DNA from: Isohypsibius dastychi
Taxonomy: Eukaryota > Tardigrada > Eutardigrada > Parachela > Isohypsibiidae
Length of the DNA stretch: 30,328 bases
NCBI GenBank assembly: GCA_034696485.1
Contig: JAQIWT010000168.1
Coordinates: forward strand, 1 to 30,328
Direction of reading: 5' to 3'
Within the stretch, counting starts at the first letter, position 1. Each line of letters begins with the position of its first letter. Below the pieces are notes generated by a model, which did no database searches, was not told the DNA's origin, and saw only the letters and a program-made list of their open reading frames with translations. The position numbers and the translations under genes are program-made. Shown in pieces: positions 1 through 28,845 of the stretch.

Positions 1-1688
1 ATATTTGTCGTGGATTGCTCAGGCTCAATGCAAGATCAAAACAAAATTGATGATGCGAGAACAGCTATGCAGATATTCCTCCGTAGTCTGCCAGACGGGT
101 CATATTTCAACTTTTACAAATTCGGCTCCACGTGAGTGACCAGTTTCTTTCAGGTCAACCATTTTTTCAACAGATTTATGTTTGCAGGTTCACGTCGTTG
201 TTCCCAGAAAGCGTCCCGTACAACGAAAGCACTTTCGAGCAGGCGAAAAAATACGCAGCTGACGCGGAAGCTGATATGGGAGGGACTGAAATTCTGGAAG
301 CTCTGAAAGATATCTACTCGAAGAAGCCAGTGCCAGAATATAGTCGACAGATTTTTGTCTTAACGGACGGTGAAGTGACCAACACTGATGAAGTCATCAG
401 CCTTGTTCGTTCAAACTCGGCGAAATCTCGAGTCTTTGCATTTGGTCTGGGCCTCTCACCAAGCCGTTCTCTTGTCAACGGCATCGCAATGGCCGGGAAT
501 GGAAAGGCCGAGTTCATTAAACACGGAGAAGAGCTCGCTGACAAAATTGGTCGCCATTTGCGTCGCGCTTTGCAGCCAGCTGTTGTTGACGCATCAATTT
601 CGTGGGTGGGAGTCAAAGATATTCAGCAAGTCCCGACCAGCCTGCCTCCTGTATTCTACGGAGATCGGCAACTCGTCTATGCACTGTTCGAGCGTGATCC
701 ATCCGGTGGCTCAGCTGTTGCAGTCAAACTTCAAATTGGATCAGATTCGAAAACCAAGCGCGCAGAGTTCAATCTGGATGCTGCTGTAAAGTCCAAGGAT
801 GACCTTTACATCAGCAAACTCGCCGCAAAAGCATTGATCAAGGAGATCGAAATCAATGCAACTGCACCCCCTCGTTCAACAGGTGGTTCATCCCAGACCC
901 GAGCTCAAAACATTCCCGCCACGCTGGAGGGTGCCAAGAAGGACAACATGGAGAGAATCACCAACATCTCACTAACCTTCGGAGTCATGTCAAAATTCGT
1001 CTCGCTTCTAGCCGTTGAGAAACGCAATGTCACCAGCAACAAAACGATGGAATTGAGAGAGATCCCTGTTCAGCTGGCTGGAAATCCTACTTCATCAGTC
1101 TGGATGAACTCTCCGCCATCAATTTCAATGTTCGCACCAATGCCTTCACCGGGCCGCTTCACAGGAGGGGGATTGAGTGCGGCAAGTGGAATGGCGATGA
1201 TGAACTCAGTTCTTTCATCAGCCGCTGGTTCTTTTGGTAGTGCAGGGTTTGGGGGTATCGTAGGAGGCTCGGTCAGGCCAAGGCCACCAGCAACACCAAG
1301 AGGACCTCCCCTATCACAGGTGTTTGCAGACAAATCCGCTGAATCAGACGCCGAGACGATTCAAACAACGACACCACGGAATAACAAGACGCTGCTCAAC
1401 GACATTCTGGCGTTGCAAAATTGGGATGGAAGCTGGTCTTTGAATGCCGACTTGATCAAGCTCATCCCAGCAGCTGTTGATCTTATGAAAACCCTCGGAA
1501 TGACTGGACAGACCGCAGATGAGAAAGCAGTCACAACCTTGTTCGTGGCAACATTTATCGAGAAACGATTCGCTGACCAGCCAAATACTTGGGATGCTAT
1601 TGTTCACAAAGCCAACGAATTTGTCGCAAAAGCGCTGTCTGACAGCGTCAAGGCAGAGGTTTTGAAGAAAATACAAGCTATTCTTTAG
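1..1688 (+). CDS. Secreted VIT/VWA-domain protein, paralog 1 (5' partial)
   Basis: The 3' part of a von Willebrand factor A protein of the ITIH/VWA5A type. Two exons are visible: 1-131 (frame 1, entering from outside the window) and 188-1688, split by a 56-base intron (132-187, GT..AG, phase 2), giving 543 residues. The VWA fold starts with DCSGSM, the MIDAS metal site DxSxS. GGTEIL and LTDGEV follow and supply the MIDAS threonine and aspartate, so metal binding looks intact. After the VWA and a beta-rich region comes a linker rich in Gly, Ser, Met and Pro (about residues 355-430 of the visible part), then a C-terminal module with [15 protein letters not shown], like the C-termini of VWA5A and PARP4. 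The VIT domain and signal peptide should lie upstream, as in the downstream paralog. It is probably an extracellular adhesion or matrix protein; the exact role is unknown. Confidence 0.9.
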
Positions 1689-2823: not shown

Positions 2824-3807
2824 TCAGTTTAACCGAAACAGATCGTTAACTGCGCGGTGTATATCCGGCAAGCTACGGTGATACACGAAGGGATTGATGG
2901 CGCAGGTGGCGTATTGCAGGCATTTCACAATCAAAAACGCGTGGTGTTCCCAGAAATCCAACAACCCGGTCAAAAGGAAATATAAAGCGGCCGGGGTATA
3001 AAGCACCATCATCATGATCGCCAACCACGACAAGGTCAAGAACAGTTTCTTGTCGTTCTTTTCAGTATCCACCACTTTACCTGATTCAGTGACGTCGTTG
3101 GTGTTCGGTTCAGTGACCATGCTTGAAATCACTGATCTGGTAACCGCTTTAACACGATTCACCCTTTTTCTCTTTCGAAGCTTCAACATTATGGCCAGAT
3201 AGCTGATGACGATTCCGATCAATGGCAGGATGAAAAGGAGTAGTTCATACATAAGTGTATACATCGTTTGAGCGGGTCCGTTGTACATGCAAATGTTCGG
3301 TTCAAGCGGGTAATGCACTCTGTCGATAATTGTGTACGGTAGAACGATAATTTGGATGGACATCCATTTTGTCAGGCAGACCAGAAAGGTCACTTTTGAG
3401 GAACGGTTGTTACGGTACATTATTGGCCAAAAAAGCGACCATGCACGGTCCAGACTGATTAACAGAACCCCGAAAACGCTTGCTGAGGCAAAGTTGAGAT
3501 TTTCGTAAAGAGTGAAAGTGCACATTCCTGGGCTGAATGGGGTTATGGCAAATAGAATGTCCGTGATAAATGGGATCATAGCGAAAATTGCCATTCCAAA
3601 ATCTGCGATGGTGAGGTTCAGAAGAAGATAATTAAACGGCGTACGAATGCGTTTATCACGTACGAACACGATGATGATGACTAAGTTGAACGAGATTGTG
3701 ATGAGGGCAGTCAGAGCAACGAATGCTGAGGCAACCACAGCACCTGTATTCACGGTGTGATCAGTAAGGTTAGGAGCGGTCAGATTACCGGATACACTTG
3801 AATTCAT
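2824..3807 (-). CDS. Rhodopsin-family (class A) GPCR, intronless
   Basis: A complete single-exon seven-helix receptor of 327 residues. I take the ATG at 3807; the frame opens two codons earlier only at a TTG. The N-terminus has three N-glycosylation sites (NSS, NLT, NLT). Helix 2 carries NLTIAD with the conserved Asp2.50. The helix 3 Cys (PGMC) can pair with a second-loop Cys (NICMY). Helix 3 ends in LDRAW, where the usual DRY has Ala for Tyr. Helix 6 has LYTP in place of CWxP, and helix 7 ends in NPFVY, matching NPxxY. Position 3.32 appears to be Asn (CTFTLYEN), not the Asp expected of amine receptors, so an amine ligand is not supported. The third loop is basic (KLRKRKRVNRVK), a usual G-protein contact. 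It is an orphan receptor, probably from a lineage-expanded set, lying between two VWA paralogs on the opposite strand. Confidence 0.92.
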   Translation of the reverse strand: MNSSVSGNLTAPNLTDHTVNTGAVVASAFVALTALITISFNLVIIIVFVRDKRIRTPFNYLLLNLTIADFGMAIFAMIPFITDILFAITPFSPGMCTFTLYENLNFASASVFGVLLISLDRAWSLFWPIMYRNNRSSKVTFLVCLTKWMSIQIIVLPYTIIDRVHYPLEPNICMYNGPAQTMYTLMYELLLFILPLIGIVISYLAIMLKLRKRKRVNRVKAVTRSVISSMVTEPNTNDVTESGKVVDTEKNDKKLFLTLSWLAIMMMVLYTPAALYFLLTGLLDFWEHHAFLIVKCLQYATCAINPFVYHRSLPDIHRAVNDLFRLN

Positions 3808-5059
3808 GATCAAAACTCAATGAAATTCTCTTCGGAATGAAGTCTATGTAAACCGGTGAGTTTCTTGAACGATGTAAATTCAACTTCTGTCTACGCAGGT
3901 GTCTGTTGTACGCTTTTATTTGCAGAAGCTAGTTGGTTGCTCAACCCCCCATATATGACAGACTAAATTGATTAAGATGTGGACCATAAATTTCTCGGAA
4001 TCGAAATGAGCAGTCTGAGCACGAATTGGTCAACGGTTCGATTCACTCTGATTCGATTTTCGGTGTGGATTAATCTAATCAAGATTCGATTGACCTTGGT
4101 TTTATTTTGACGGGTAAGCCGATTATTCAGGATGCAGTTGAAGATGAAATGGAAGCAGTGTTCGATCCAATGTTTTTCAATTTTGAATCAATTCTTTTCG
4201 ACTGAATGACCACGATTCTGTCTTTAATCAAATCAGAATTGGAACGTGATCAGGGAGCGGATCTGATCGTTTAGATTACTTTCTTGCAGCGGTTGAAGAA
4301 TAATAAGAACGTCTGGCAAAAACCGTTGAAACTGGAAATGTCATTCCGAAACATGTTTCAAAAAGCTTATATGACATTACATACATACACGCATGTTATG
4401 TACGTGCATAACATACATAACATTTATAATTAGATTCTAGCTTCGGTTTGCAACCAAGTAACCCGAGCAGCTCATTTGAAAACTTAGTTCAGTTTTCTTT
4501 TCATTCCCAAACGAAGGTTCTCAGTCTCATCATCCAGCTGCTGCTTTTTGGCATCGTGGCAAAACGAAGATTTCTACCCAATATTTTCGTGAAGGAATCA
4601 AAAGCTCTGAAATGTTTTCGGAAAATTGGAAGGATAGAGATATCGCCAGTTTGGTCTTTTGGTGCTCTCAACGAAACTTTTGATATCTTCGCCCGGTATT
4701 TATTACTGTCGGACCAGGTCGTGGAGAGCGGTACTTCTACAAGAGAAATGACCCCCCCCCCCGTGTCCTACAATTTGTTAAAATTTGTTCTAAACTTGAT
4801 GTCACGCTTGAGGTTTTTCGTCGCATATAGCTAATGCTGCAGGCGAGGTTTTCTGCGTCTTCTTTCGTCATTGCACCGCTCGGAAACAACAATCGCAGAA
4901 CGCCAGATAAACACCGGTTTGTCAGATCGGGTTTACACACTTTGCTTATGAAGTCAATCAGTCTTTTCACTTAGGAAATTCGGCCTTGAATGCTTCATGT
5001 GCGTTGTTGGTAAATTGATAATTCAGCTTACTTCCTAAATCTGGTCTTTGGCGCTGAAA
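3808..5059. other. Spacer upstream of the GPCR and of VWA paralog 2
   Basis: A divergent intergenic region that should hold the promoters of the minus-strand GPCR and the plus-strand VWA gene. I could not pick a convincing TATA box. It contains a palindrome at 4393-4414 and a run of eleven C at 4752-4762. The open frames inside it (for example 4448-4834) show no protein signal. Confidence 0.55.
4393..4414. repeat. 22-base near-palindrome in a CATA-rich tract
   Basis: ATGTTATG and CATAACAT arms flank a TACGTG centre, inside a short ACATACATA-rich stretch (about 4376-4425). It could be a dyad binding site or just a cruciform-prone microsatellite. It lies about 590 bases upstream of the GPCR ATG and 650 upstream of the VWA gene. 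Confidence 0.5.
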
Positions 5060-7627
5060 ATGCGTGTCCCTTGGGTAATCTGGTCCACGGCGTTTCTAAC
5101 CATCCATCTAACCCTGGTAGCTGGAAGTTCTTTCATCTCTGGAAGCTTTGTCGGGCTGCTGGTAAAGGAGAAAAATACACCAGTTCCGCTTAAATCTGTC
5201 AACTACGACGTTCAAGTCCGCTCCTTCGCCAGCCGGATCACTATTCAACAAGTTTACAAGAATGAGGAGACCACGGACCTGGAATGTGTCTACGGGTTTC
5301 CTATCAATGATCAGGCTAGCGTAGTTGGGTTCACTGTTTCTATCGACGATCGGTAAGTTCATCAACAGTACATGATTGCTCGAAATCAGTCAATTTTCCC
5401 AAAAAACTCCCTCATAATATTCAATGTGTCTCACCGGTTTTGTACAACGTTAGATTAATTGAGAGCCAATTCAAGAAGAAGGAGGAAGCTTTAAAGGAAT
5501 ATGACGAAGCTCTCAAGAAAGGAGAAGGAGCTTATTTACTAGACCAAGCTGATCGAAGCGATGATACGTATATCCTGAGTGTCGGTCGGCTTCCACCTGG
5601 GAAAGAATGTCTAATCTCAATCGCCTACGTCTCAACTTTGGAATCCGTGAATGAAACAACCCTTCGACTTGTTATTCCAACCTCCCTCTATCCACGCTAC
5701 AATCCAACCCCTGAAACTACCAAAGAACAAGTGGCGCCGCCTGATGTATTTGCATCACAAGTTCCCTATACGTCCAGCTTGAATGCATCAATCACTACAT
5801 TCAACAAAATCAAGTCAGTTTCGTCACCAACTCATCCCGTCGCTGTCCGCATTCTAAATGACACTCAAGTTGGGGTGACCTTTGGAGCAAAGCAGCCATT
5901 GGATAAAGACCTCTTCCTGGATATTGAAGTGAACAGCAATCCGGAGCAACATGTGGAAGTTGAAGAGTATGCACCAGGAAAGTATGCGGCCATGTATTCG
6001 TATGTCCCGCATTCCGAAGGAGAGAGAAAAAAGCGAGTGAATACGGAAATCATCTTCGTTGTTGACTGCTCGGGGTCAATGCAAGACCAGAACAAGATTG
6101 ATGACGCGAAGACAGCCATGCAGCTGTTCCTTCGTAGCCTCCCAGAAGAATCGTTCTTCAACTTTTACAAGTTCGGATCAACGTGAGATCATAAATCTAC
6201 TTTAACTGGTGCTTTAGAAATACGTTCTACATTCCAGGTTCACATCGCTGTTTCCGGAGAGCGTGCCATACAACAAAACGACTTTCAACTTGGCCCAAAA
6301 ATATGCAATTGACGTGAGCGCTGATATGGGAGGGACCGAAATTCTAGGGGCTCTGCAGGATATCTACTCGAAGAAGCCAGTGCCAGAATACAGTCGACAA
6401 ATTTTCGTCTTGACCGACGGTGAAGTGACAAACACCGACGAAGTCATCAGCCTTGTTCGTTCAAACTCGGCTAAATCTCGCGTCTTTGCATTTGGTCTGG
6501 GTCTCTCACCAAGCCGTTCTCTCGTCAACGGCATCGCGATGGCAGGCAACGGAAAGACAGAGTTCATCAAACACGGAGAAGAGCTCTCTGACAAAATCGG
6601 TCGCCATTTGCGTCGCGCTCTGCAGCCAGCCGTCACTGACGCTGCGATCTCGTGGGTTGGCGTCAGAAACGTCCAGCAAGTTCCCAGCAGCCTACCACCT
6701 GTATTCTATGGAGATCGTCAACTGGTCTATTCACTGTTCGAGCGTGACCCATCCAGAGGCTCAGATGTTGCGGTCAAACTTCAAATCGGTTCAGACTCAA
6801 AATCTAAGCGTGCTGATTTCGATTTAAATGATGCTGTTAAATCCGAGGGTGACCTTTTCATCAGCAAACTGGCCGCCAAAGCACTCATCAAAGAAATTGA
6901 AATTAACGCAACAGCGCCTCCTCGACCAACAGGGGGCTCAACTCAAACACGAGCTCAAAACATTCCCGCCAAACTCGAGGGTGCCGAGAAAGACAACAAG
7001 GAACGAATCACAAATATATCGCTTACCTTTGGAGTCATGTCAAAATACGTTTCGCTTCTAGCCATTGAGAAACGGAATGTTTCAAGCAATTCAACCATGG
7101 AGCTCAGAGAAATACCTGTTCAACTAGCTGGGTCAGATACCTCATCTGATGTCATGAACTTCCCTTATGCCGCTATCTCCGGAGGTAGTAATAAGTTCGC
7201 GGTGGCGATGGATTCTTTTGCAGAAGAAGAGGAGGAGGAAAGTGCGCCAATACCTACAAGAACTTCTCTCAGTGGCCGTCCACAGGTTCAACTTACCACG
7301 ACCGCACCATCCATGCCAAGTAACAGGACATTGCTGAATGACATTCTGGCCCTTCAGTCCTTTGATGGAAGTTGGAAGTTGGACGACGAGTTGATTAGGT
7401 TGATTCCCGCAGCAAATCAACTTTCCGAGAAATTTGGGTCGAACCTAGCACCTGTGGATGACGCTGTGACGACTCTCTTCGTGACTACTTTCATCCAGAA
7501 GAGATTCCCGGGTCAATCCGATACATGGAGCACCATTGTTCAGAAAGGTGTTGACTTTGTCCAGAAAACGCTATCAGACAGCGTTCGAGAAGCAAGTTTG
7601 AAGAAGATCCAAACTATTTCTTTTTGA
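5060..7627 (+). CDS. Secreted VIT/VWA-domain protein, paralog 2 (complete)
   Basis: Three exons, 5060-5352, 5454-6182 and 6238-7627, join in phase (both introns phase 2; 101 and 55 bases) to give 803 residues. The first ATG, at 5060, begins a signal peptide (hydrophobic to about residue 23, ending LVAGS). A VIT domain follows (about 30-160; VYGFPIND and LPPGKECLISIAYV are characteristic). The VWA domain starts near residue 298 with MIDAS residues D302, S304, S306, T374 and D401 all present. A linker with an acidic run (EEEEEE near 7215-7240) precedes the C-terminal [15 protein letters not shown] module shared with VWA5A and PARP4. Domain order matches inter-alpha-trypsin inhibitor heavy chains, but no ITIH C-terminal processing site is obvious. 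The upstream paralog shares the second intron position and phase. It is likely extracellular; the ligand is unknown. Confidence 0.93.
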
Positions 7628-11925: not shown

Positions 11926-14900
11926 ATGGAGAATAACAGCGAATCTGGTTCTCTCATCCCATTCCTATCACGCCAGCGTCCACCAGATTTATCCATCTGC
12001 ACGTCGGAAGTGCCGCCATCACCCAGTGACAGCGGATATCAGACTGGTGGAGGAGGAGGAATCCCTGAAAGTGCTTCGCGAGTTCGCCATTTTACCACAC
12101 GGTTCTTCCCCTCCGACGAAGAGGAATTGGATGATTTGGATTGTGAGGAGTTGGAGGATGATGTTTTTGAAGCTCCAGAGTGTGTGATGGCGGAAGACAA
12201 GGAACGCGTTGTCGCCAAGGTGCCTTTGATGAGAAACAGAGCTTTCAGCTTCCCTTTTACGCTTTCGGATGTTCACTTCTCAAATGGCACTGGATTGTCG
12301 TTTTCGGGACTCAGTTTGATACAACGAAGACAATTTGGATCGCGATTTGTGATTCCAGGATCAAGGGCATCGCCGTTGGGGATTTGGGACGGAAATGACG
12401 GAAGAGGAGATCAAGTTCAAGAAGATTTCGATGTGGACGACATTGGTAAGTTATTTTAATTATAAAAGTATCTAGCACAGGTTGTAATAAATTTAAGGAA
12501 CCATTTGGATGTGTTTTTTCGATCGTTGAAGCATTTTTCAAGAGATTTTGGATGATTGTTAGAATCGATCGCGTCGACTGTTTTAAAGTGAATCGGGCTT
12601 ATTCTTTCTGGAAGTATTGTTATCTATCTGGTGAATGTTTTCCAACAACTTTTGGGCGAATATTGTATTATTCCAGTGGACTTCCGGCTGGCAGGGATTT
12701 TTGCGCTTTCTAGCTGTAGTGTATGAAAGAAAATTTCGCAGAGTAGTTTTCCATGAATTTACGTCTGAAAATTTTGATCAGTTTTGTTCTGGTTCTGAAC
12801 TGTTAAAATTGAACACGCTATGATATCTTCTGTGAATGTTATTTCACGTTTTTGCAATTTAGTTCCCGCAATATTTGTTCAGCATAATTTCAAGCGATAA
12901 CTGCAGCCCTAATTGAAACCGGAACAGCGAATCACTCAGCAATTACTTTCCTTCAAAACGACGCGAGTTGACCGAGACCAAAATGGACGAGCCAAATTCT
13001 CTTTCGATCACCAGCTGAAATTTGTCATCCATCCGGTGATCTCAGACTGCGGTTGAGCTGAGGAAGCGTTTTCCTCCTCTAAACCCTTTCTTATTTCCTG
13101 TTTCTATTGAGGCTGTTATTACCTCAGGAAACTCCAACATTCAGGCGGTCTATAAAAGCATGAGAATGAGATAATCTGGTTCTGAATAGCGGGAAGGGAT
13201 TAATGCGAGACCAATTAACGCGTATTCTACTCATGTTCTTCTCAAGCGAGTGTTGAAAAGCAGATGAAGAAGGCATTTATAGTGCGGCGAATTTATTACA
13301 CCTGTTTGAGAGGTTCGAACCGCATTGATTTACAACAGGAGCCGAAAGTTTGCATTTGGATGATGTCAGCTTTTGTTTTCTGAGTGTGAGGTCATTTTGC
13401 TTCGATTTCCTGATTATCGGTCAGTTGAGACTGAATTTAAGAAAATGTTGACGAGAAATAGAATTATTTGAAGTTGAAGATTTCGTTTATTAATCGCAAA
13501 GACATTTATCCGTACAGGAAAGCATCAGTTTTCAGCCGCTTTTGGTTGAACCCAGTATAACGGATCAGTTGGGTTTTTTATTGATTTTTGAAAAGTGGAA
13601 CATTTTGAGTGGATAAATATTAAACAGTGGAACAAGTAGAGACAGGTGGCATAATTTCAACTTGACTTTGAATAGCAGTCCGCCTTTCAAATGGGGATAT
13701 CAATTTCATAAAATGGAGTAGGACCACTCTCTGCAAAGCGGGATCTCTGGTTTGCACGGAGATTTGAGTTTTGGAGTTGAGAGGATTATGAGAGCTAAAT
13801 GAGCAGATGATCTAATTGGTCAGCAGCGCTTGAGAAAACAATTTACCAACATAATATCGCCAGTCAGGTGCAGTTGCGCTTTGTTTGTTTTGACCAAGTC
13901 AGACGGAAATGTGATAGCTCCCTTCTCTTTCTATCTGATTTTATCCAAATCCTTCCCCTGATTTGTTCGGCTTGATGAATCATGATCTCTGATTTAACAG
14001 GTGGATTATGCTCCTTATAGCTTTTTTAACATCGCAGATGTCGATCATTTTCGCGGTCGAAATTAAGATGTTGCTAATAAAATGGTTTTGGAATTTGGAA
14101 ACTGAATTTTGAATGCCGGCTACAATGTTTTTTGCACCTGATTACAAATCTTTTTTGAATAGTTTTATGAATTAGGCTTTGTAGAAAACAGTTTCTTGTT
14201 ACAGTTTCTTATATAAATTTGGCATCGATAACGAAACCTGAACTTGGCTCACCTCTAGATTCAGCAGTTGTTTTTCGCGACATGCTGCAAAGTCGCGTTT
14301 GAGGTTGTTTGCTCGCGTGAGTGACTCGTGGCGCTTTCTGACAATTTCTAATGCGATAACAGGTTATTTGGTAATAATAACACATTTCCTTTCCTTTTCG
14401 AAACTCATCGTTTCAAAGCAAATCTTTAAATAATCTTCATGTCAAGTTGAGAGGGGGAAAGTTTAAAGACTTGAGACTTGGTTGTTAACAACTCCTCAAA
14501 AGCACACGTGTGCGGCCCGAGCCGGCCGCCAGTTATTAAATCACAGATCGCTTATTATAAAGATGTTTTTATGACTGTCATTACGTGAGCTCTCTTGACT
14601 TATTATCCTACTTAATTTCAACCAAGAGGCCATTGCACTTGAACTCCGATAAACATTAGCAAGAGCTCGACATCACTTGATTCCAAGCTTACAATATGTA
14701 TTTTCTGGAACAAGCAGAAACGTTCTAACGGTTTTCCCGTTCGGAAGTTTTTTCGATTCTTGAGGAAAGCTTGGTAAAACTAATAATTTATTTTCGTTTC
14801 GGTAATGTTTGTGCTTTTACAGATGATTATGACGAAAAGCTCCCTTCGGATCAATCTCGTCCTCCTTCCGATCCCAAAGATTTTATCAATGTTCCCGACG

Positions 14901-17900
14901 CAGGTTCCCCGCATGATGTTCCAAATTTTTCCGGTTCTCGCCTGATGGCCCTTCCAGATCTCATTTTATCCGGTACTCGACATGGCCGACATCTTCACCA
15001 TTCTGCGGACACCCCTGATTCCCGGAACAGCAATAACAGCATGGAATTTGCGATCGCATGCCGGTTGGCTCAAATTGGCGATGAATTCGAAGCAAAATTC
15101 TTCAGTTCGGTGAGTCGTTGTCTTCAAATTAAAAAACATTTGAGAATTGTATACTTTTGAGTTATTTCGTTCCGACAGTAGTTTTTGTCACGAATGTCTT
15201 TCGATTATAATTTCGTTGGGTGAAATTTTTTGCGCTTGTTTACTTCAGAATAATTTTTTGACTTTTTTCGGGGGTATTCAAAATTTGCTTTTTCTCTTGA
15301 ATTTATCTTATTTTTAATATTGTGGCCTGTAATTTCCAAGTTTATCGCTGATGGTCGCGGTCAGTTTATCTGTTTTCGTCGCATTTAATTCTGAACATTT
15401 AAGCGATTAATTATCTGGGCTTTATGGTCAATGTGATATTTGTGGGTTGGTTGGTTGGTCGTTAAAGTTTTAAATTGGAAAATCATTTCCGAAGTAGCTC
15501 TTGTCCAGCCGTCAGCTATTATGTCAGATCGCCTGTTGAGCGTGACGAGTTATTTGCTAGCAAGTAAATCTATCATACGCATGACAGGTCTTTATTGCAC
15601 TTGTATGTAATATTTGCTCTTGACCGCTTTTCCAAAATCAAGTTCAATTTTAGAAACTGCGCCAAGTCTGTAGGAAAGTGGCTAGTTGGATAGAGGTGGT
15701 TGCGCTCGGCTTGTCAAGCGGGGTATTTGTTTGCCGGCCATATTTGCTTGCTCCTGTAGAAACGTGGTTGGTGAGCAGATTTTATGTTGTGAAAGGGTTG
15801 GATGAGTTCATGGAAAAAGGGCTATTAACACTTCGCGGTTGCGTAATTACAGGAAATTGTGTCGAATAATGGCTTTTATCGCACCGCTTTGTTTTACCGC
15901 GACTTTATATCCGAAGAGAAATTTCCCGATTATTTGAGTGAATTGAAATTAATCTTTTGATCAATGTGATAATGAAATATATCCGCCGCAGCAATTTTCT
16001 CTTCCGGAACGGTAATTAACGCTAATTGCTCATCTCCTGCCGCACTTTCCGCGTCACTTGATATTGATATCTCGGTTTTCAATCAGATGATCCGTCGTAA
16101 TTTTGAATTATTTGTTTCTTGTATCAATGTTTGTCTTTTTGGAGATTTTGGTACTTGAATAGACCTAATCGCATATTGACGGTTGTGCTTGAATTAACGA
16201 GGTTAACTGAGACGCAAATGTTGGAATTGAATTATCAGTGTTGGCCTTTGTCAATAGTATCCTCCAACCTGATGCTGGATGATTTATTGCTTACTGATGA
16301 GGCTCTTTGTGACAGTTCAGTGTTGTGATAGTCTGGTAATCAAATGTGAGATGGTCAAGAGATGCTTACTTTACCAACTCTTTTACGACTGCCAAATGTC
16401 CAAACTCCATCATGAAATGCCGTAATCTGACATTAATCGGAAATGTCCACGTTTTATTCGCTTTTCCGGCTGAAATACGGAATCCCAGCTGCTGAGCCAA
16501 AATGTAAAAACTTTGGTCTCCGGTAAATAATCTTGGCCCGAACGTTGAATTATTTTCAACCCTCCGAGTTTATTTCGTTATTTTACGACTTAATAAATTC
16601 TAGTTTTTTTAGTGAATACTAATATTTAGCCTGTGCTGGAAAACCAAGATGAGACTGCGCGATATTAGTTTGGGTTGAGTACAGCTCGTGTTTCCTTTGA
16701 TGAACGTACGACATGTCTGGCGTAGTAGTTTTGTAGTAAATGGTGTTTGGCTGGTTGTCAGCTCTTTCGGGGCAGACTTGTCTGTCCTAATCTTATCGCT
16801 GAGCATTTATGCATTTATCTCTCTTGATCAGTAAGTTTACCGGAGCGAGCAAACAGAATCGTGGTCAACTGTGGATTATAATCAGATTTTAGTTGTCCCT
16901 CTCGACATGGTTTGAAAGGAAAATATGCCTCAAGCCAAACACCTGTGTTTATCCCTGCATGGCGAAATTGTGCACTTTTAAATTGCTTCATCTTTGCTCC
17001 TTTTCGTGATGCGTGAGCAGACTTTGGCTTTAGCGTTAAGTGGAGCTGATTCAATATGACCTTTTCGAGTTGTGCCTTGCGGGTTTTTAAATCCCCGTAA
17101 TCGGTCATTTGGGATGAATAAGAGAAATATATGGAAAAAAAATTGTCATCGATAATAAAACTAACTTTGTCAGCTTGAATTATTTTATTTTTCTTATTTT
17201 CGTTGAACTTGAGAATACAAATGAAATCCATCCAGATCAATCACTTTGTATTTCCGGATGTTACAATTACCCACGCAAACCGCCGTTTTATTCAATCATG
17301 TTTCAGGTAGCTACTCCATAGAATCTATTCATTTATTAGTCAAAACGGGATTAGTGAGGATGGAGTGGTTTACATTCTGAATTGGCCGGCGTTCATCATT
17401 ATCCTTTTTCGTGAGAAATTCAAACTTTGTCGAGAACAACAAATTGGAAATGAGGAAATTTTGTGCTTGACTAAAATAATAATTATGTTTCTTTTATTCA
17501 AATGCGGAAACCGTCTATTAATCACCTCATAACGATCCACTTGATTCGTTTTGTTAAGGACACGTGTTGGACATGCTTGTTGATCATTTAATTTCTCCTC
17601 CTCCCAAAGCTGATCGAAATTGTTAAATTAGGTAAATTTCAAAATGAGATAATATTTTGAAGTTCGTTGATCCATGAATTTTACATTTTAGTGAGAGAGG
17701 AATTTTTCAACCATGTTTACAAATCAGAGTTGTTTGCGATTAATCAAGATATTCGGAATGTTTTGCCAAGAAATGTGATATTGTTTCGGGTGGTTGTGAA
17801 TGTCATGACTAACGATATTGTCCATCTGCTTTACTTTACTTGTCCGCCCGTACGGTTTGATACTTGTGACAAGTTTGCGGTAATTATCATCATATTTTTG

Positions 17901-18812
17901 AAACCTGATCGACACATTATACATCTGTAGAGGCCGTTAGAAATGCACTTTGCGCGAGAGATGAGTTGGAGAAGAGAGTAGAAGAGCGAGATGAACGGAC
18001 AGCTGGGCAGACACTATTTTTCCACTTTGTTATGCAATTGGCGATTTTGAAGTAAAAGTGCCAATTATCTTTTGCTCCTGTCGTGTTTTGAGGCCCGATG
18101 GTGGTCGGCTGATCCTATCTCTAGATTTACGCACATCAAATTTTATGTTGTGTGCTTTGCCAACTGAAAATTAGTTCTGATAACATACCCAGTTCTGTTA
18201 GCATTCGAGCAAAAAAAGCCATAAGCTTTTATAAAAAATGTATTTGTTTTCCTGTTTTGTATTAAAATTCAGTTTCATCTTTGAAATCTCTTAAAAGTAT
18301 TTAGGCGTGTACTGAGTTTTTCCTACCAAACAGACAGGCTTTGTGCCAAATTTCTCACTTATTTTGGTTCAAAACAAAAGGAATCAAAAAGAACAATATT
18401 GCGGCGAATGAATAAAATACAGACGTGAGTCTGTTGTTTTGTTGAAAATTGGAATTTCGGGTTGGACATGATGAAGTGAGATCTATAACAAATTAGTTCT
18501 GTAACTAAAATTTGTTCACATCTCTATTAAACGTTGGGAAAATTCCTGTAGTTTTTGTCTGAACATTTTGGTCGATTTAATATTAAAAAAAATTTGAACA
18601 CTTTGTTTTTCGTTCAGTCACTTGATTTTCAGCTGGATTAATAAATTTTTGTCTTCCAGAATGGGCCGTTAAATGGAGACAGTCCGGATTCGGGACGAAG
18701 TTTGGGTGCTGTCAGTCTGAGTTCAGCATCCCGATTATGGCAGTATCTCACGAAGTCATCAAACGCCGGTCGCACTTTCACTCGTCAACGTTCCCGTTCA
18801 ACGGCCGACTGA
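11926..18812 (+). CDS. BMF: BH3-only pro-apoptotic protein, Bmf/Bim-like
   Basis: Three exons, 11926-12445, 14823-15109 and 18660-18812, join at GT..AG introns (phases 1 and 0) into a 319-residue frame. TGA lies directly before the ATG, fixing the start. Residues 251-262 read IACRLAQIGDEF, a full BH3 helix: four hydrophobic positions (I251, L255, I258, F262) and the invariant G259-D260. Vertebrate Bim has IAQELRRIGDEF here. Residues 74-81, EELEDDVF, match the start of vertebrate Bmf (from memory), and RLWQYL (294-299) echoes the RVWWQIL after the Bmf BH3. SGYQT (36-40) resembles the LC8-binding TQT motif. Such proteins bind Bcl-2 proteins and free Bax/Bak at mitochondria. Outside these motifs the chain is acidic, Ser/Pro-rich and likely disordered; there is no membrane anchor. 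BH3-only identity is strong; Bmf over Bim rests on the flanking motifs. Confidence 0.87.
12446..14822 (+). other. Intron 1 of the BH3-only gene
   Basis: A 2377-base intron running from GTAAGTT to TTTTACAG. I found no gene, repeat copy or RNA in it. GGTTCGAACC at 13312 looks like a tRNA B box but has no matching A box or cloverleaf. Confidence 0.75.
15110..18659 (+). other. Intron 2 of the BH3-only gene
   Basis: A 3550-base intron from GTGAGTC to GTCTTCCAG. It contains repeat copy B at 17212-17600. Open frames at 15678, 16119, 16815 and 17667 show no protein signal. Confidence 0.75.
17212..17600 (-). repeat. Dispersed repeat copy B (truncated)
   Basis: Same orientation as copy A; matches 9690-10080. 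It keeps the first part of the core exon (TAVCVGNCNIRKYKVIDLDG, ending near HLYS) but stops abruptly at 17212, so the rest of the exon and everything 3' is missing. Two codons differ from copy A (GGT for GCT, TAC for CAC). It sits inside intron 2 of the BH3-only gene. Confidence 0.8.
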
Positions 18813-24066: not shown

Positions 24067-26942
24067 TTATAACAGAGACCGTTCGACGCTGTCATGTTGA
24101 GAATGGAGAAGATGAAATACGGGAACGATGTCGGACTCTGATATTATCCAGTAGTTGTGTCGCTTGTTTTCTCTATCTACCCTGAAATCGGGCAATTTTG
24201 GTATGGCGATTAATATCAAACATATACATGTCAGATCCAGGTTACTAACCAGTGCTTCCCCACTCCGGTAAGAAAAACAAGTACGACCAAGATGACAATC
24301 AATGGTGTCAGAAGAACCGAGAGCGAACTCGCTAAAAACTTCTATATTTTATGTACGCAAAAGCAGCCGCATGACGATGTTACCTTGTTTGTCGCAAATA
24401 TAGCTTCCACAATAATGGTGATCCGCTATTGGTGATGTAAGCATATTCAAAATTCCTGTGTTATTCCGCTCTAACCAGAACAAGCTGCCGTTTGCGCCGT
24501 ACGAAGCAAAAACCTTGAAAACGAACAAACTGTTCGGAGAGCAACTGACTTCCACATGAGGAATGCAAGAACCAAACCTCCATTCTGCCTGAATTGTTGT
24601 TGAACGCCATTACATCAATGTCTGGCACAGTGACTCCATTCGGCTTGATCGAGACCATTCCGCTAGTCAAAAACAATGGTCGAGCGAGGAATGTTTGGAT
24701 CATTCTGTTTCCTTGGCATGGGTTCATCTCAGAAAGACTGAAGTTCACCGCTGTTGCCCACATTTCCACCGAATCAAATGCTCCACGAACACTGTACAGA
24801 TCCATGGGCTGGAAGATTCGATTTTGTGGTCATGACCTTTTTCATACGGTTCCTTGCTTGTTGCAAATTAACCTTAAATTTCTCATACGTGATTCCGTAT
24901 GTTCGGACTGCTCGCTCTTCCAGAATCTGGTTGATATCTTCCTGACTGGCTTTCACAGGGGCTGGGGTAATGTATATTACGTTGCTGAAAGTCTCTGTCT
25001 ATTACATATCGCGATCACCATATCTAATAAGCATGGTTCATCAGAACAAGTAGAACTAACCAGGTATCTCGGTGCGGTTTCGAAGAGTACTGTTCCTCCA
25101 AAGAATTTATGCTGGCTTGGTTGCATGATTATGTAAACCTGTGCACACAAAAAGGCATTTATCGGACAGCTTGGTATTTAAGTTGTTGCCACGAACTGAC
25201 ATAGTGCTCTGTCATGTTGATATTCCTTGCTAACCCCTGAAATGTAACGCTAGATTCACTTGGGCTGCTTGGTCGTTTTGGGCCACGGACCTATAACTTA
25301 CTAGAAAACGAATCAGACATTCCGTAAAACCGCCAAAGACCAAGACTACAAAACATTGATTGAGCATTGTTAAATACTACGGTAAATGTTACACCAGCAA
25401 GCCACCTCTGCTCGTCTGTCGGGCGAATTTTAGCGCGGCGATCATCGAGCCCGTGTTGTTACAATTGAAGAAGACTGACTCGGCTCTCATGCCAATGCTA
25501 CGAGCGCTCCATATGAGCGGATCTCGCAGACCCATGTACGTCGGACTCTCCCCATATAGATATGTTAAGCGTGACCACATGTTTCGGGTACATACTGCAA
25601 CGATTGCAGCAGCGAGCCGATTTTGTGCACCGCTGGTCATAATCCTCCGAGTCTGAACGGCCAGACTGCCATCCTCGACACTGATTCCGCTAGAAAACCA
25701 ACAATACGTCACAGAACTGGTACTAAGCCGGATCCCAGCGATATTTCGTTAATCAATTGGAACTGTGACCATCTGGGTCGTCAGAAGGGTGTGGTCAAAG
25801 GAAGCAGTCCATGACCATCACTAACCTTCCCTGGATCTCGTTACCATTACCTTACTGAGGAAATTGCTAAGTGAACCACTATTTTCCCGCGTTATGTTAG
25901 TTGGATCAGGGGAGCTTCTTTTCGAGTGGTAGTAGTACTTGAATTTTATTACGTACAAGATATCACGGGTGTAGAGTTCTGATTTGCAGAGCTTATGTTG
26001 TGATTTGGAAGATATCGGTAAAAATTTCCACAGTCAACACCCTCCAGCTTCTCATACATCTACCCTAAGCATGCTAGGTCAGTAACCGGTGTTACAAACC
26101 ATTCAGTTTGACATCATCAGCTTCTACTAAAAATACATTTCAGTCACGTTGCTTGAAAAACATGGTACATCGCTTTTAGACCGTCAGAGAGCCGACCCTT
26201 CGTACGTTTTAGAGGCTATAAATTACTCGTTTTCCCCACGAAATCTGATGGACGTCCAGTTCTACGTGCTGCGATGTGTAGTTTTGTCCCCGGGAAACAA
26301 AAATGAGATGTTTTTGGCTAATATTAACTTTTGTGTAACTGCGGTAACTGTTTTGACTGCACATAACGTTTTCAAAAAACAATGGTGTTTGAACAGCGAC
26401 GCATGCAAGCCCTACTTCATAGCAGTCAGTGGATATCCAGCATCATGCACTTACAGGTTAAAACTGACAACATTCCATTCTGAAACGAAAGAGAGATCAG
26501 AAACCAAACCGCGATATTCATCATCTTAAACTTATACCTCTACCCATATCCATTGCAGTTTTTTCACAGCCTGTGTAAGTAGCCATAAATTATTAAACTA
26601 GACCGTGCAGATGAGTATTGTCGTGTTACCCGAGCTGATAAGAGCCATACAAACATTGGGCTCCTTCATTGCGTAGAATTCTCGAGCAGCAAAATCCGCA
26701 GTGACTGCGTCCATTTCAGGACAGGTCTTGGCGCTGTAGTTAGCGGCCACCAGAGTCAAGTGTATACTCTCTCGAAATTTGTCATTGACCTTGTCCACCG
26801 CAACGCTGAGACCGGCGCCAACATACCTGATTCCGAGCGTAAACGGGCCATCTGGCAGCAAACTTACGATTTTAACACGATAAACCGCCTCATTGACGGC
26901 AACGAGCAGCAATGCAAGAAATAACCTTTCGAATACAGACAT
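24067..26942 (-). CDS. Natriuretic-peptide-receptor-like membrane protein without kinase or cyclase domains
   Basis: Twelve exons: 26942-26630, 26570-26544, 26479-26455, 25689-25406, 25345-25302, 25236-25201, 25138-25061, 24998-24873, 24808-24578, 24513-24384, 24331-24250, 24181-24067. All joins are GT..AG and in phase, giving 496 residues; introns are 52-68 bases except one of 765. It opens with a signal peptide (hydrophobic to about residue 19). A periplasmic-binding-type ligand domain of the ANP-receptor family follows: YRVKIVSLLPDG, ISSGCEKTA, EWNVVSF, GISVEDGSL, ARQTSRVLVFGG, NINMTEHYVYIIM, VIYITPAP, RGAFDSVEMWA, DHHYCG. A single membrane helix (LLTPLIVILVVLVFL, about 434-456) and a tail of about 38 residues end it. 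The tail has NYWIISESDI, like the WxIxxxDI that precedes the kinase-homology domain of receptor guanylyl cyclases, then a stop. NPR-C, which clears ligand, has this layout and about 540 residues. A pseudogene cut at the 3' end is the alternative. Confidence 0.8.
25690..26454 (-). other. Unusually long intron 3 of the receptor gene
   Basis: 765 bases, against 52-68 for the other ten introns. Its donor (GTAAGTGC) and acceptor (TTGGTTTTCTAG) are good. It contains most of an antisense open frame, 26144-26529 on the plus strand. Confidence 0.6.
26144..26529 (+). other. Antisense open frame within a receptor intron; identity unknown
   Basis: A plus-strand frame of about 128 codons opens right after an acceptor-like TACATTTCAG. 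It has no ATG near its start and runs over one 25-base receptor exon. Parts (FYVLRCVVLSPGNKNEM, then FLANINFCVTAVTV, a C-x6-C pair and YFIAVSGYP) faintly resemble cystatin order (QxVxGxNY, Cys pair, PW), without the key residues. It could be a nested gene exon or chance. Confidence 0.2.
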
Positions 26943-27040
26943 TGGTGATCTAAGAAAAAAGCGATCTGGGATATTTCTGATCTACTCTCGGACTATATGG
27001 AGATCACGTAAGCTGGAGTGGGATTGGGGCATAAATGATT

Positions 27041-28206
27041 CTACGATATGGCCAGAATCATGTTTCTCCAGATGAGAGAGCAAATTCTTGGCGTGAGGGT
27101 AAGACAAGTCGTTGCGAAGTGAATCCAGGAAGGGAATGATTTTTTGATGAGCAGTGCGAAAAATGCCTGCGGACTGTAGCGGTTCTTGATGTAATCACTT
27201 TCTTGCACAAAGATGTGACCTTTACTTGACTCCAATAGGCACCCCGGTTGAATGACCTAATATCATGGCTGGAAGCCTGAAAAAGTGCCAGCATGAGTTT
27301 CGTGTTACATTCAATACGCCCAGAAGATGTGATTCCAATGAGAGCTAGCAATATCACTTGTTCTGATCGATTTTAACGACTTCAGAAAAGCCAACGATAT
27401 CCAGCCTGTCTCTGAAATTTTCGAAACTTCCAGAATGGCAAATTGCATATTTCTAACGCAAAGTCTCCTGGTCTGGGAACCACATGCGCTGCACGACTTG
27501 CGTGAACCCCCACAGGGAAGCTCTTCTGTTCGTATCAATATCATCATTACTTTCCGTCAGCCGCTGACAGTTCGTTAGGTGATTTGAAATGCGGAGGAGT
27601 ATTAGAATAAAGAGTCAGGATTAATTGGACCGTAGCTCTTGTAACAGCTTTAACAGGCTACCGCGCTGGCCGCATGATCTTGGGAGCCCCATTTCCGAAA
27701 GCACTGCTATCGAAGAGAGTGTTAACGAAATTCAAGATCTGACATTTCAGCAGAAGGACACTCAGATTGAAACAAGTTTTCGTTTGGAATACCAAATCTG
27801 AGTGAAAGTCCCGATTTTTGAAAGTTCACTGAAAAAAAGTCACGCAAGATTTTGCGTAACTACTCGAGGATCGAAGAAGTTTTCAGTTTCCATTATTTGC
27901 GGCGCTCTTATTTCTTGCTCGAGACAAGTGGAAATGGCGATCGAGAATAAGTGCTATCAGATTGGACATGGTTTTTGGTTGGACTACTACTGAGTGGGAG
28001 GTTAACTTTCGAAATTACTCTTCCAAGTTGGCTGAATTTCGCGGTGGAGTTGTCATTCCTGAACGCAATATCGTAAACCAATTCCGCTTTAGATATAACT
28101 AGATTCAAACGACCTGAACATTCGACCGCTTGAACTAGACATTTACAAACATTCAAAAACGCAAGATCACCAGAACGCATATTGTGACACCATGCAAGCA
28201 TACGCC
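27041..28206 (-). other. Possible multi-exon gene or gene remnant, unresolved
   Basis: The minus strand holds several short open stretches with good acceptors: GACTTTTTTTCAG before 27828 (NFQKSGLSLRFGIPNENLF), GCACTTTTTCAG before 27276 (LPAMILGHSTGVPIGVK, then a GTAAAG donor at 27225), and GGTGCAG before 28206 (MLAWCHNMRSGDLAFL). A chain with introns of about 46-81 bases can be joined in phase, but other frames look equally protein-like, including one needing single-base shifts. I recognise no family. It may be a real gene with tiny exons or a decayed copy. Confidence 0.25.
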
Positions 28207-28246
28207 TGCACCAAAAAACAGCTCGTTGTAGAAAATTTCAACGTTG

Positions 28247-28845
28247 TCACTCATCGAACAAATGAAAAAGCCATTGCATGCCAAGAAAGTTGAATTTCAT
28301 CTTCTCCGATCTTACTGGATCACGCATCTTGTCCAATTCCGTAAGTGACTTCGGTTGCTTTGCATTTGATTCCAACATTTCCAAAACATCAAGGCCGGAA
28401 TCAGCGGAAAGATCACTGGTTTGATTTCCTTTCTGTCTTTTCAAGCTGAACACCGAAACGCTGTTCAGCCAGCTTCCACGAAGTGCCATGCAGCGTCCAC
28501 GCTTTTTTGCATCGTTGTGATTGGTGCATTGACATGGTGAAGCGCATGGGTTTTGGTCGCCTGGCCCACAGATTTGACTTGCAATACATTTCGGAACTTC
28601 TTTCCTCACAATTGGCTTCTCGATCTCTAGAATCAAAAACGTTACCGTATCATGAGCAATCACCAGATCAGATTAAGATATACTGCAAATGACGTACTTT
28701 TTAGATTTTGTAGCGGATTACGACTTCGTAGTCCAGGAGATCGAATACGAATGTTTGGAAGCCGAGCTCGCTGTTGTCCGTTTATCACCAAGAGTACTCC
28801 GGAACAAATGGATAACGCTAAAAGATATGGGATCAATGTAGACAT
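28247..28845 (-). CDS. Small secreted cysteine-rich protein (knottin-like spacing)
   Basis: Two exons, 28845-28698 and 28626-28247, join across a 71-base GTACGT..TTCTAG intron in phase 1 to give 175 residues. It starts with a clear signal peptide (LLALSICSGVLLV, to about residue 23). Six cysteines follow at 63, 69, 77, 81, 83 and 95, spaced C-x5-C-x7-C-x3-C-x1-C-x11-C, close to the inhibitor-cystine-knot order of small secreted proteins. A basic stretch (KPIVRK) before the first Cys could be a processing site. The tail after Cys95 is long, charged and Cys-free, which is unusual. GATCCA|GTAAGA near 28315 is an alternative donor, so the real C-terminus may differ. The family is not recognised, and no specific activity is implied. 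Confidence 0.6.

Follow-up and report, generated by a model that had tools for sequence, protein, structure and literature searches.

A BH3-only gene probably related to vertebrate BMF in the tardigrade Isohypsibius dastychi

Does a tardigrade possess a BH3-only initiator of cell death that can be traced to one of the named vertebrate initiators? The question is raised by a three-exon gene on the forward strand of a 30,328-nucleotide stretch of Isohypsibius dastychi DNA (contig JAQIWT010000168.1, positions 1 to 30,328; hereafter the window), which a preliminary description had taken for an apparently ecdysozoan BH3-only gene of BMF/BIM type. A 2022 survey seeded with BIM, BAD and BMF places probable BH3-only proteins in deuterostomes and possibly lophotrochozoans, and names C. 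elegans as the ecdysozoan with a BH3-only protein (PMC8998228); an oyster study gives no BH3-only protein in that animal and none known in molluscs (PMC5550854). No report of BMF or another BH3-only gene in a tardigrade was found among the listed titles and abstract openings of Creative Commons-licensed articles in PMC. The gene model, a relative in a second tardigrade and a BH3 without other BH domains together support the assignment to the BMF/BIM type. We consider it likely that the gene is a death initiator of the BMF type, related to vertebrate BMF (Bcl-2-modifying factor, PF15185) by descent, possibly from before the split between BMF and BIM.

The spliced frame was rebuilt independently, and the three exons proposed earlier did join into one reading frame, with the same coordinates, length and BH3: 960 bases, comprising 319 codons and a stop, with an in-frame TGA directly 5' of the ATG. 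Both introns are of the GT-AG class, with donors GTAAGT and GTGAGT, acceptors ending TTTTACAG and CTTCCAG, and phases 1 and 0. A search of 5.8 billion sequences clustered at 90%, in which 1548 candidates were scored, yielded a sole match at E<=1, the 290-residue Paramacrobiotus metropolitanus protein P0001 (LOC129595616, annotated as uncharacterized), with E 6.4e-18 and 32% identity over 89%. As the alignment with this full-length relative extends from the initial Met to the final Asp, collinear across both splice junctions, the gene model is judged to be more than a product of chance. The two proteins share a series of islands in the same order (DSGYxT, [LM]ED[DE]VF, MRNRAFSFPxTLxDVxF, LPDLxLSG, the BH3, DSPDS, RLWxxL and RQRSRSTxD), between which the sequence drifts, and MAFFT places the first two slightly out of register. 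The window protein is probably largely disordered, with short motifs set amid this drifting sequence.

The host assembly (30.4 Mb in 1648 contigs, completeness not known) was searched exon by exon. The window protein found its own three exons, at this locus alone, and no paralogue at E<=1 in a protein search. A tardigrade CAHS query gave 11 matches in the genome, the best with E 1.8e-39. These matches, together with the Paramacrobiotus origin of the closest protein, bear out the suspicion, first raised from the letters of the DNA, that the host is a tardigrade; as CAHS proteins belong to eutardigrades, it is probably one of these.

Residues 251-262 of the window protein follow the canonical BH3 pattern h-x3-L-x2-h-[GAS]-D-x-h, which is conserved in P0001, where the BH3 reads LACCLARLGDDF. 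No match to the Bcl-2 fold (PF00452) was found in the window protein at E<=10. The BH3 lies wholly on exon 2 of 3, that is, on the second-to-last exon; in BH3-only genes, according to a schistosome study, the BH3 occupies one exon, the second-to-last, in all but Bid (PMC7022251). A six-frame scan of the window and the retrieved host loci (61,612 residues, some loci overlapping) with a generic BH3 pattern returned only the window BH3, the BH3 of a BAX-like locus (L001), which recurs in L003-L005, and a single match on the minus strand of a second Bcl-2-fold locus (L002). In shuffles of the two tardigrade proteins under two settings, this generic pattern appeared in 132, 179, 237 and 276 of 50,000. 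Such a rate, roughly 0.3-0.6% for both proteins, is what could be said for a disordered scaffold that has no part in apoptosis and bears a fortuitous BH3-like helix, but the two tardigrades share the BH3 as one of their conserved blocks and the host has BAX-like and Bcl-2-fold partners for it, which makes this explanation very improbable. When PDB was searched with the BH3 peptide, designed alpha-repeat proteins with IGDE repeats ranked first (E 0.0056 and 0.011), with BIM and BAK peptides following (E 0.75-1.7). The alignment with BIM peptides speaks for a BH3, but a sequence search alone cannot prove one.

The BH3 had also been described as nearly that of vertebrate BIM (BCL2L11). Its letters (IA..L..IGDEF.A) do look BIM-like, but the N-terminal motifs and the pairwise scores point instead to BMF. 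Within BMF itself, P0074 and P0081, both from caecilians, and P0104 have a BH3 with IGDQF, against IADQF in the mammals listed, a spelling nearer to those of BIM and the tardigrades (IGDEF).

For the comparison with BMF, a search yielded 204 matches; all 120 listed carry the Pfam domain of BMF, and every one for which a species is named comes from a vertebrate. Forty of these 120 were retained on criteria that included a BH3 of the BMF kind and the motif D[DE]VF; redundancy filtering left 31. All 31 match [LM][DE]{1,2}D[DE]VF, part of which was thus a criterion of their selection, and the tardigrades have LEDDVF (window protein) and MEDEVF (P0001) as the counterpart. A second block, R..[LS]FP[LF][TS], which in BMF reads R..LFPL[TS], is present in 28 of the 31 and in both tardigrades, as RAFSFPFT in the window protein and RAFSFPLT in P0001, at a distance from the first of 23 and 27 residues, respectively, compared with 28-31 in BMF. 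Shuffles reproduced the first motif in 41 of 200,000 to 204 of 100,000 cases (both proteins, three settings) and the second in 12 to 42 of 60,000, rates that are optimistic, the patterns having been chosen after the sequences were seen. At the other end of the protein, an RLW segment stands after the BH3 exon, where BMF has its WWQ.L.FL.NLAL helix. The best 15-residue hydropathy near the C terminus is 0.39 in the window protein, 0.93 in P0001 and 0.85 in mouse BMF, the segment being less hydrophobic than that of BMF in the window protein and not in P0001.

The structure of the gene offers a further comparison. In the tardigrade, a phase-1 intron precedes the BH3 exon and a phase-0 intron follows exactly seven codons after the BH3 Phe. 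The window side of this comparison is the rebuilt gene, and the exon ends of vertebrate BMF were deduced from isoforms and intron read-throughs, not from gene models. Among the 120 BMF matches listed, 84 have a BH3 followed by a tail of at least 8 residues, one has a shorter tail and 35 have no match to the BH3 pattern. A script classed 49 of the 84 tails as standard and 35 as non-canonical, one of which (P0032) proved on inspection to be a canonical variant; P0024 has an insertion ahead of the standard tail. In the 35 non-canonical tails, the seven positions that follow the BH3 Phe are preserved with little variation, and divergence starts at the eighth, which is V, L, E, M, S, I, A, D, T, K, H or Q. 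Because these diverging residues share no codon start, the vertebrate junction at +7 would be of phase 0, and several of the diverging tails begin with VG or VS, as the read-through of a GTG-type donor would. After RLFY, 119 of 119 residues in the BMFs listed are G, A or V, and some of the proteins end in GECS; a G, A or V here fits a split codon G/NN of phase 1. The BMF proteins from which these ends were read are related and partly machine-predicted and do not count as independent cases. As far as the isoforms indicate, vertebrate BMF and the tardigrade gene agree in both intron phases (1 and 0) and in the +7 position, an agreement for which chance would account in about 1% or fewer, a rough guess that was not computed. 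The BH3 exons of BIM and PUMA probably end at this same +7 place, which would suit an origin before BMF and BIM parted.

Profile and alignment scores also connect the two tardigrade proteins with BMF. A profile hidden Markov model of the 31 BMFs scored the window protein at 12.4 bits in two collinear domains, EELEDDVF and the BH3, and none of 4000 shuffles scored as high. With hhalign, the tardigrade pair aligned to the 31 BMFs with a score of 32.1 (P about 5e-4), which was reached in none of 100 column shuffles, and for the mean local-alignment score of P0001 over the 31, each of two settings gave 2 shuffles in 3000 that did as well. Mean scores were 45.5 for the window protein and 51.7 for P0001 against the forward BMFs, compared with 33.7 and 31.8 against reversed ones. 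Pairwise z values lay at 2.3-5.2 for three BMFs, the highest for mouse BMF with P0001 (5.2), and did not exceed 1.7 for human BIM, BAD, BID and PUMA (best, PUMA with P0001); over all 31 BMFs the window protein had values between 0.4 and 3.5, and P0001 between 1.2 and 5.3.

Besides the late choice of the motif patterns, several results weigh against a kinship with BMF. The 31-BMF model gave P0001 3.6 bits, which 4 and 24 of 2000 shuffles equalled; 28 and 12 of 3000 shuffles matched the window protein in mean local-alignment score; and the maximum score over the 31 was reached by 92 and 47 of 3000 for the window protein and by 24 and 39 for P0001. The Pfam BMF model had no match in either protein at E<=10, and PF15185 found nothing in the host genome. 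The profile of the tardigrade pair, run against a protein database with the 8000 best candidates scored, recovered no homologue outside tardigrades. The dynein-light-chain motif [KR]xTQT, which is KATQT in mouse BMF, is absent from both tardigrade proteins. In the exon-wise search of the host assembly, the completeness of which is not known, neither NB-ARC nor an APAF-1-type winged helix was matched, and the host apoptosome may be missing, diverged or unassembled. In hhalign, human BIM alone reached 31.4 (P 6e-4), compared with 24.1, 21.9 and 24.9 for three single BMFs (P 0.006-0.02), and our confidence in the BMF-type reading was lowered because this single BIM outscores single BMFs. Taken by itself, the sequence evidence for kinship with BMF is moderate, at about 1e-3 to 3e-2, and does not settle whether the relative is BMF or an ancestor of BMF and BIM. 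The BIM models PF06773 (N-terminal) and PF08945 (BH3) missed the window protein, though both match human BIM, and the Pfam BID model matched its BH3 region alone, below threshold (E 0.096, 12.7 bits against a cut-off of 25). A sub-threshold match to a viral family was taken as chance.

The hhalign result is also an argument for descent from a BIM/BMF-like gene that predates the split of the two, as human BIM at 31.4 scores as high as the BMF profile at 32.1 and exceeds the single BMFs at 21.9-24.9. The LEDDVF and FPLT blocks, however, are held in common with BMF and have no counterpart in human BIM by eye, the KSTQT of BIM is absent from the tardigrades, and the pairwise BIM scores are near those of shuffles, 53 and 164 of 500 of which equal them. 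We hold such a descent to be possible, though with rather less than even confidence; it overlaps with the BMF-type reading, and the two are not exclusive. It is a good deal less likely that this is a tardigrade-specific BH3-only protein whose BH3 was gained by convergence, as has been argued for the fly protein Sayonara, and whose likeness to BMF is due to chance. According to the Sayonara study (PMC10107002), a BH3, as a short linear motif, should evolve readily, and sequence-only statistics of about 7e-4 to 3e-2 and the lack of a Pfam BMF match leave room for convergence; three collinear BMF motifs, the same intron phases, the same +7 position and the prominence of BMF in pairwise similarity all speak for BMF-type descent instead.

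The differences from vertebrate BMF set the bounds of the claim. Both tardigrade proteins go undetected by Pfam, lack [KR]xTQT and have the extra elements DSGYxT and RNRAFSFP, and the window protein has 319 residues, compared with 185 in the BMF query. Because it stays below the Pfam cut-off and lacks the dynein-light-chain motif, we do not call it a full BMF, and describe it as BMF-related by descent and likely to work in the same way. DSGYQT was considered as a dynein-light-chain site and dropped, as its Q is R in P0001 and TQT occurs in neither protein. RNRAFSFP, identical in both tardigrades, fits RxRxxS and RxxSxP, which we take to be the Akt and 14-3-3 consensuses, as we take DSGxx[ST] to be that of the beta-TrCP degron. 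This identical site is what would recommend a BAD-like gate run by survival kinases and 14-3-3, but 161 and 211 of 500 shuffles equal the alignment with BAD, for which hhalign gives P 0.34, so that the likeness is functional at best; the idea of BAD, suggested by the 14-3-3-like site, was dropped on these scores and is highly unlikely.

A BMF-type initiator would need partners, and the host genome has two PF00452 loci. L001, on contig C72, is a BAX-like gene whose BH3, BH1 and BH2 parts lie in different open frames; joined, they match BAX best (E 5.8e-14) and then Bcl-xL (3e-12). L002, on contig C715, is a second Bcl-2-fold gene (PF00452 E 4.4e-8), for which the best PDB match is BAK (E 4e-4). 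In addition, 25 exon matches to the caspase domain were found, some of which contain stop codons. With BAX-like, Bcl-2-fold and caspase genes present, partners for a BH3 therefore exist. In the mechanism that we propose, stress would release or induce the window protein, the BH3 helix would dock into the groove of a host pro-survival Bcl-2 protein, and the docked BH3 would free or activate the BAX-like pore former, leading to caspase activation and killing. Control may lie in phosphorylation, through the Akt/14-3-3-like RNRAFSFP and the degron-like DSGYxT, where BMF has its dynein-light-chain tether. Two studies describe Akt/14-3-3 and beta-TrCP control of BIM (PMC2871139, PMC4695108), and the first also describes the tethering of vertebrate BMF and BIM by the dynein-light-chain motif.

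The positions of the exons and motifs are collected in Table 1. Elsewhere in the window, 87-1688 (+) and 5320-7627 (+) hold two similar genes with VWA, the second also with VIT, which resemble inter-alpha-trypsin-inhibitor heavy chains and appear to be a tandem pair. A 330-codon frame at 2824-3816 (-) is of the rhodopsin type with seven transmembrane segments (PF00001 E 8e-34), apparently a single-exon class A G-protein-coupled receptor. Several open frames at about 24461-28672 (-) are possibly exons of one gene; on visual inspection, that at 26598-26981 (-) resembles a receptor ectodomain, and five frames tested in this region had no Pfam match. Rfam at gathering thresholds had no match within the window.

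Table 1. Exons of the window gene and motifs of its protein, in window coordinates (a slash marks the exon boundary)
Feature	Position	Strand	Remarks
Coding exon 1	11926..12445	+	residues 1-173 and first base of codon 174; donor G/GTAAGT; phase 1 intron after
DSGYQT, DSGxx[ST] motif, residues 35-40	12028..12045	+	DSGYRT in Paramacrobiotus; beta-TrCP-degron-like
EELEDDVF, BMF N-terminal motif, residues 74-81	12145..12168	+	MEDEVF in P0001; L(E/D)DDVF in vertebrate BMF
MRNRAFSFPFT, residues 102-112	12229..12261	+	matches BMF R..LFPLT block
Coding exon 2, BH3 exon	14823..15109	+	phase 1 in, phase 0 out; donor TCG/GTGAGT
LPDLILSG, conserved block, residues 217-224	14951..14974	+	kept in P0001
BH3 core IACRLAQIGDEF, residues 251-262	15053..15088	+	
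Coding exon 3 with stop	18660..18812	+	residues 270-319
SASRLWQYL, short C-terminal Trp-bearing segment	18723..18749	+	SALRLWRHL in P0001; weakly hydrophobic in window protein
RQRSRSTAD, C terminus	18783..18809	+	RQRSRSTTD in P0001; further RxRxxS site

Among ecdysozoans, C. elegans EGL-1 is likewise a BH3-only initiator, compared here from the literature; its BH3 is divergent, and it has no known relation to BMF. The preliminary description held the BH3-only set of the well-studied ecdysozoans to be divergent or missing, and for flies the second part of this is outdated, as Drosophila has the BH3-only protein Sayonara, a coiled-coil protein with a BH3 reported to have arisen within Diptera (PMC10107002). 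Schistosome BH3-only proteins, likened by their description, are protostome initiators with partners of the BAX/BAK type (PMC7022251), and their kinship is unclear. The further proposal that a vertebrate-style trigger is older and was lost in flies and worms stands in part: loss is a fair inference, but with the dynein-light-chain motif absent it is part of the trigger that is seen. We advance a wider reading more tentatively, with confidence just short of even, in which BMF would be a bilaterian initiator of ancestral type, kept in tardigrades with a BAX-type effector as a full, vertebrate-like three-part pathway; gating by kinase, 14-3-3 and degron would stand in place of the motor tether, the tether would have been added later, and the simplicity of flies and worms would be secondary.

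A term search of the text of a tardigrade stress review (PMC13389832) returned no apoptosis terms, and a study of the Hypsibius and Ramazzottius genomes proposes that, through the loss of genes, apoptosis and other responses may be uncoupled from stress signals (PMC5531438). If the kinship with BMF is true, a named initiator predates the split between protostomes and deuterostomes, which implies its loss in flies and worms. The finding suggests that this trigger was in place before vertebrates arose and that the standard fly and worm models have either lost it or altered it past recognition. It also makes the window gene a candidate switch from stress to death in animals famed for surviving stress.

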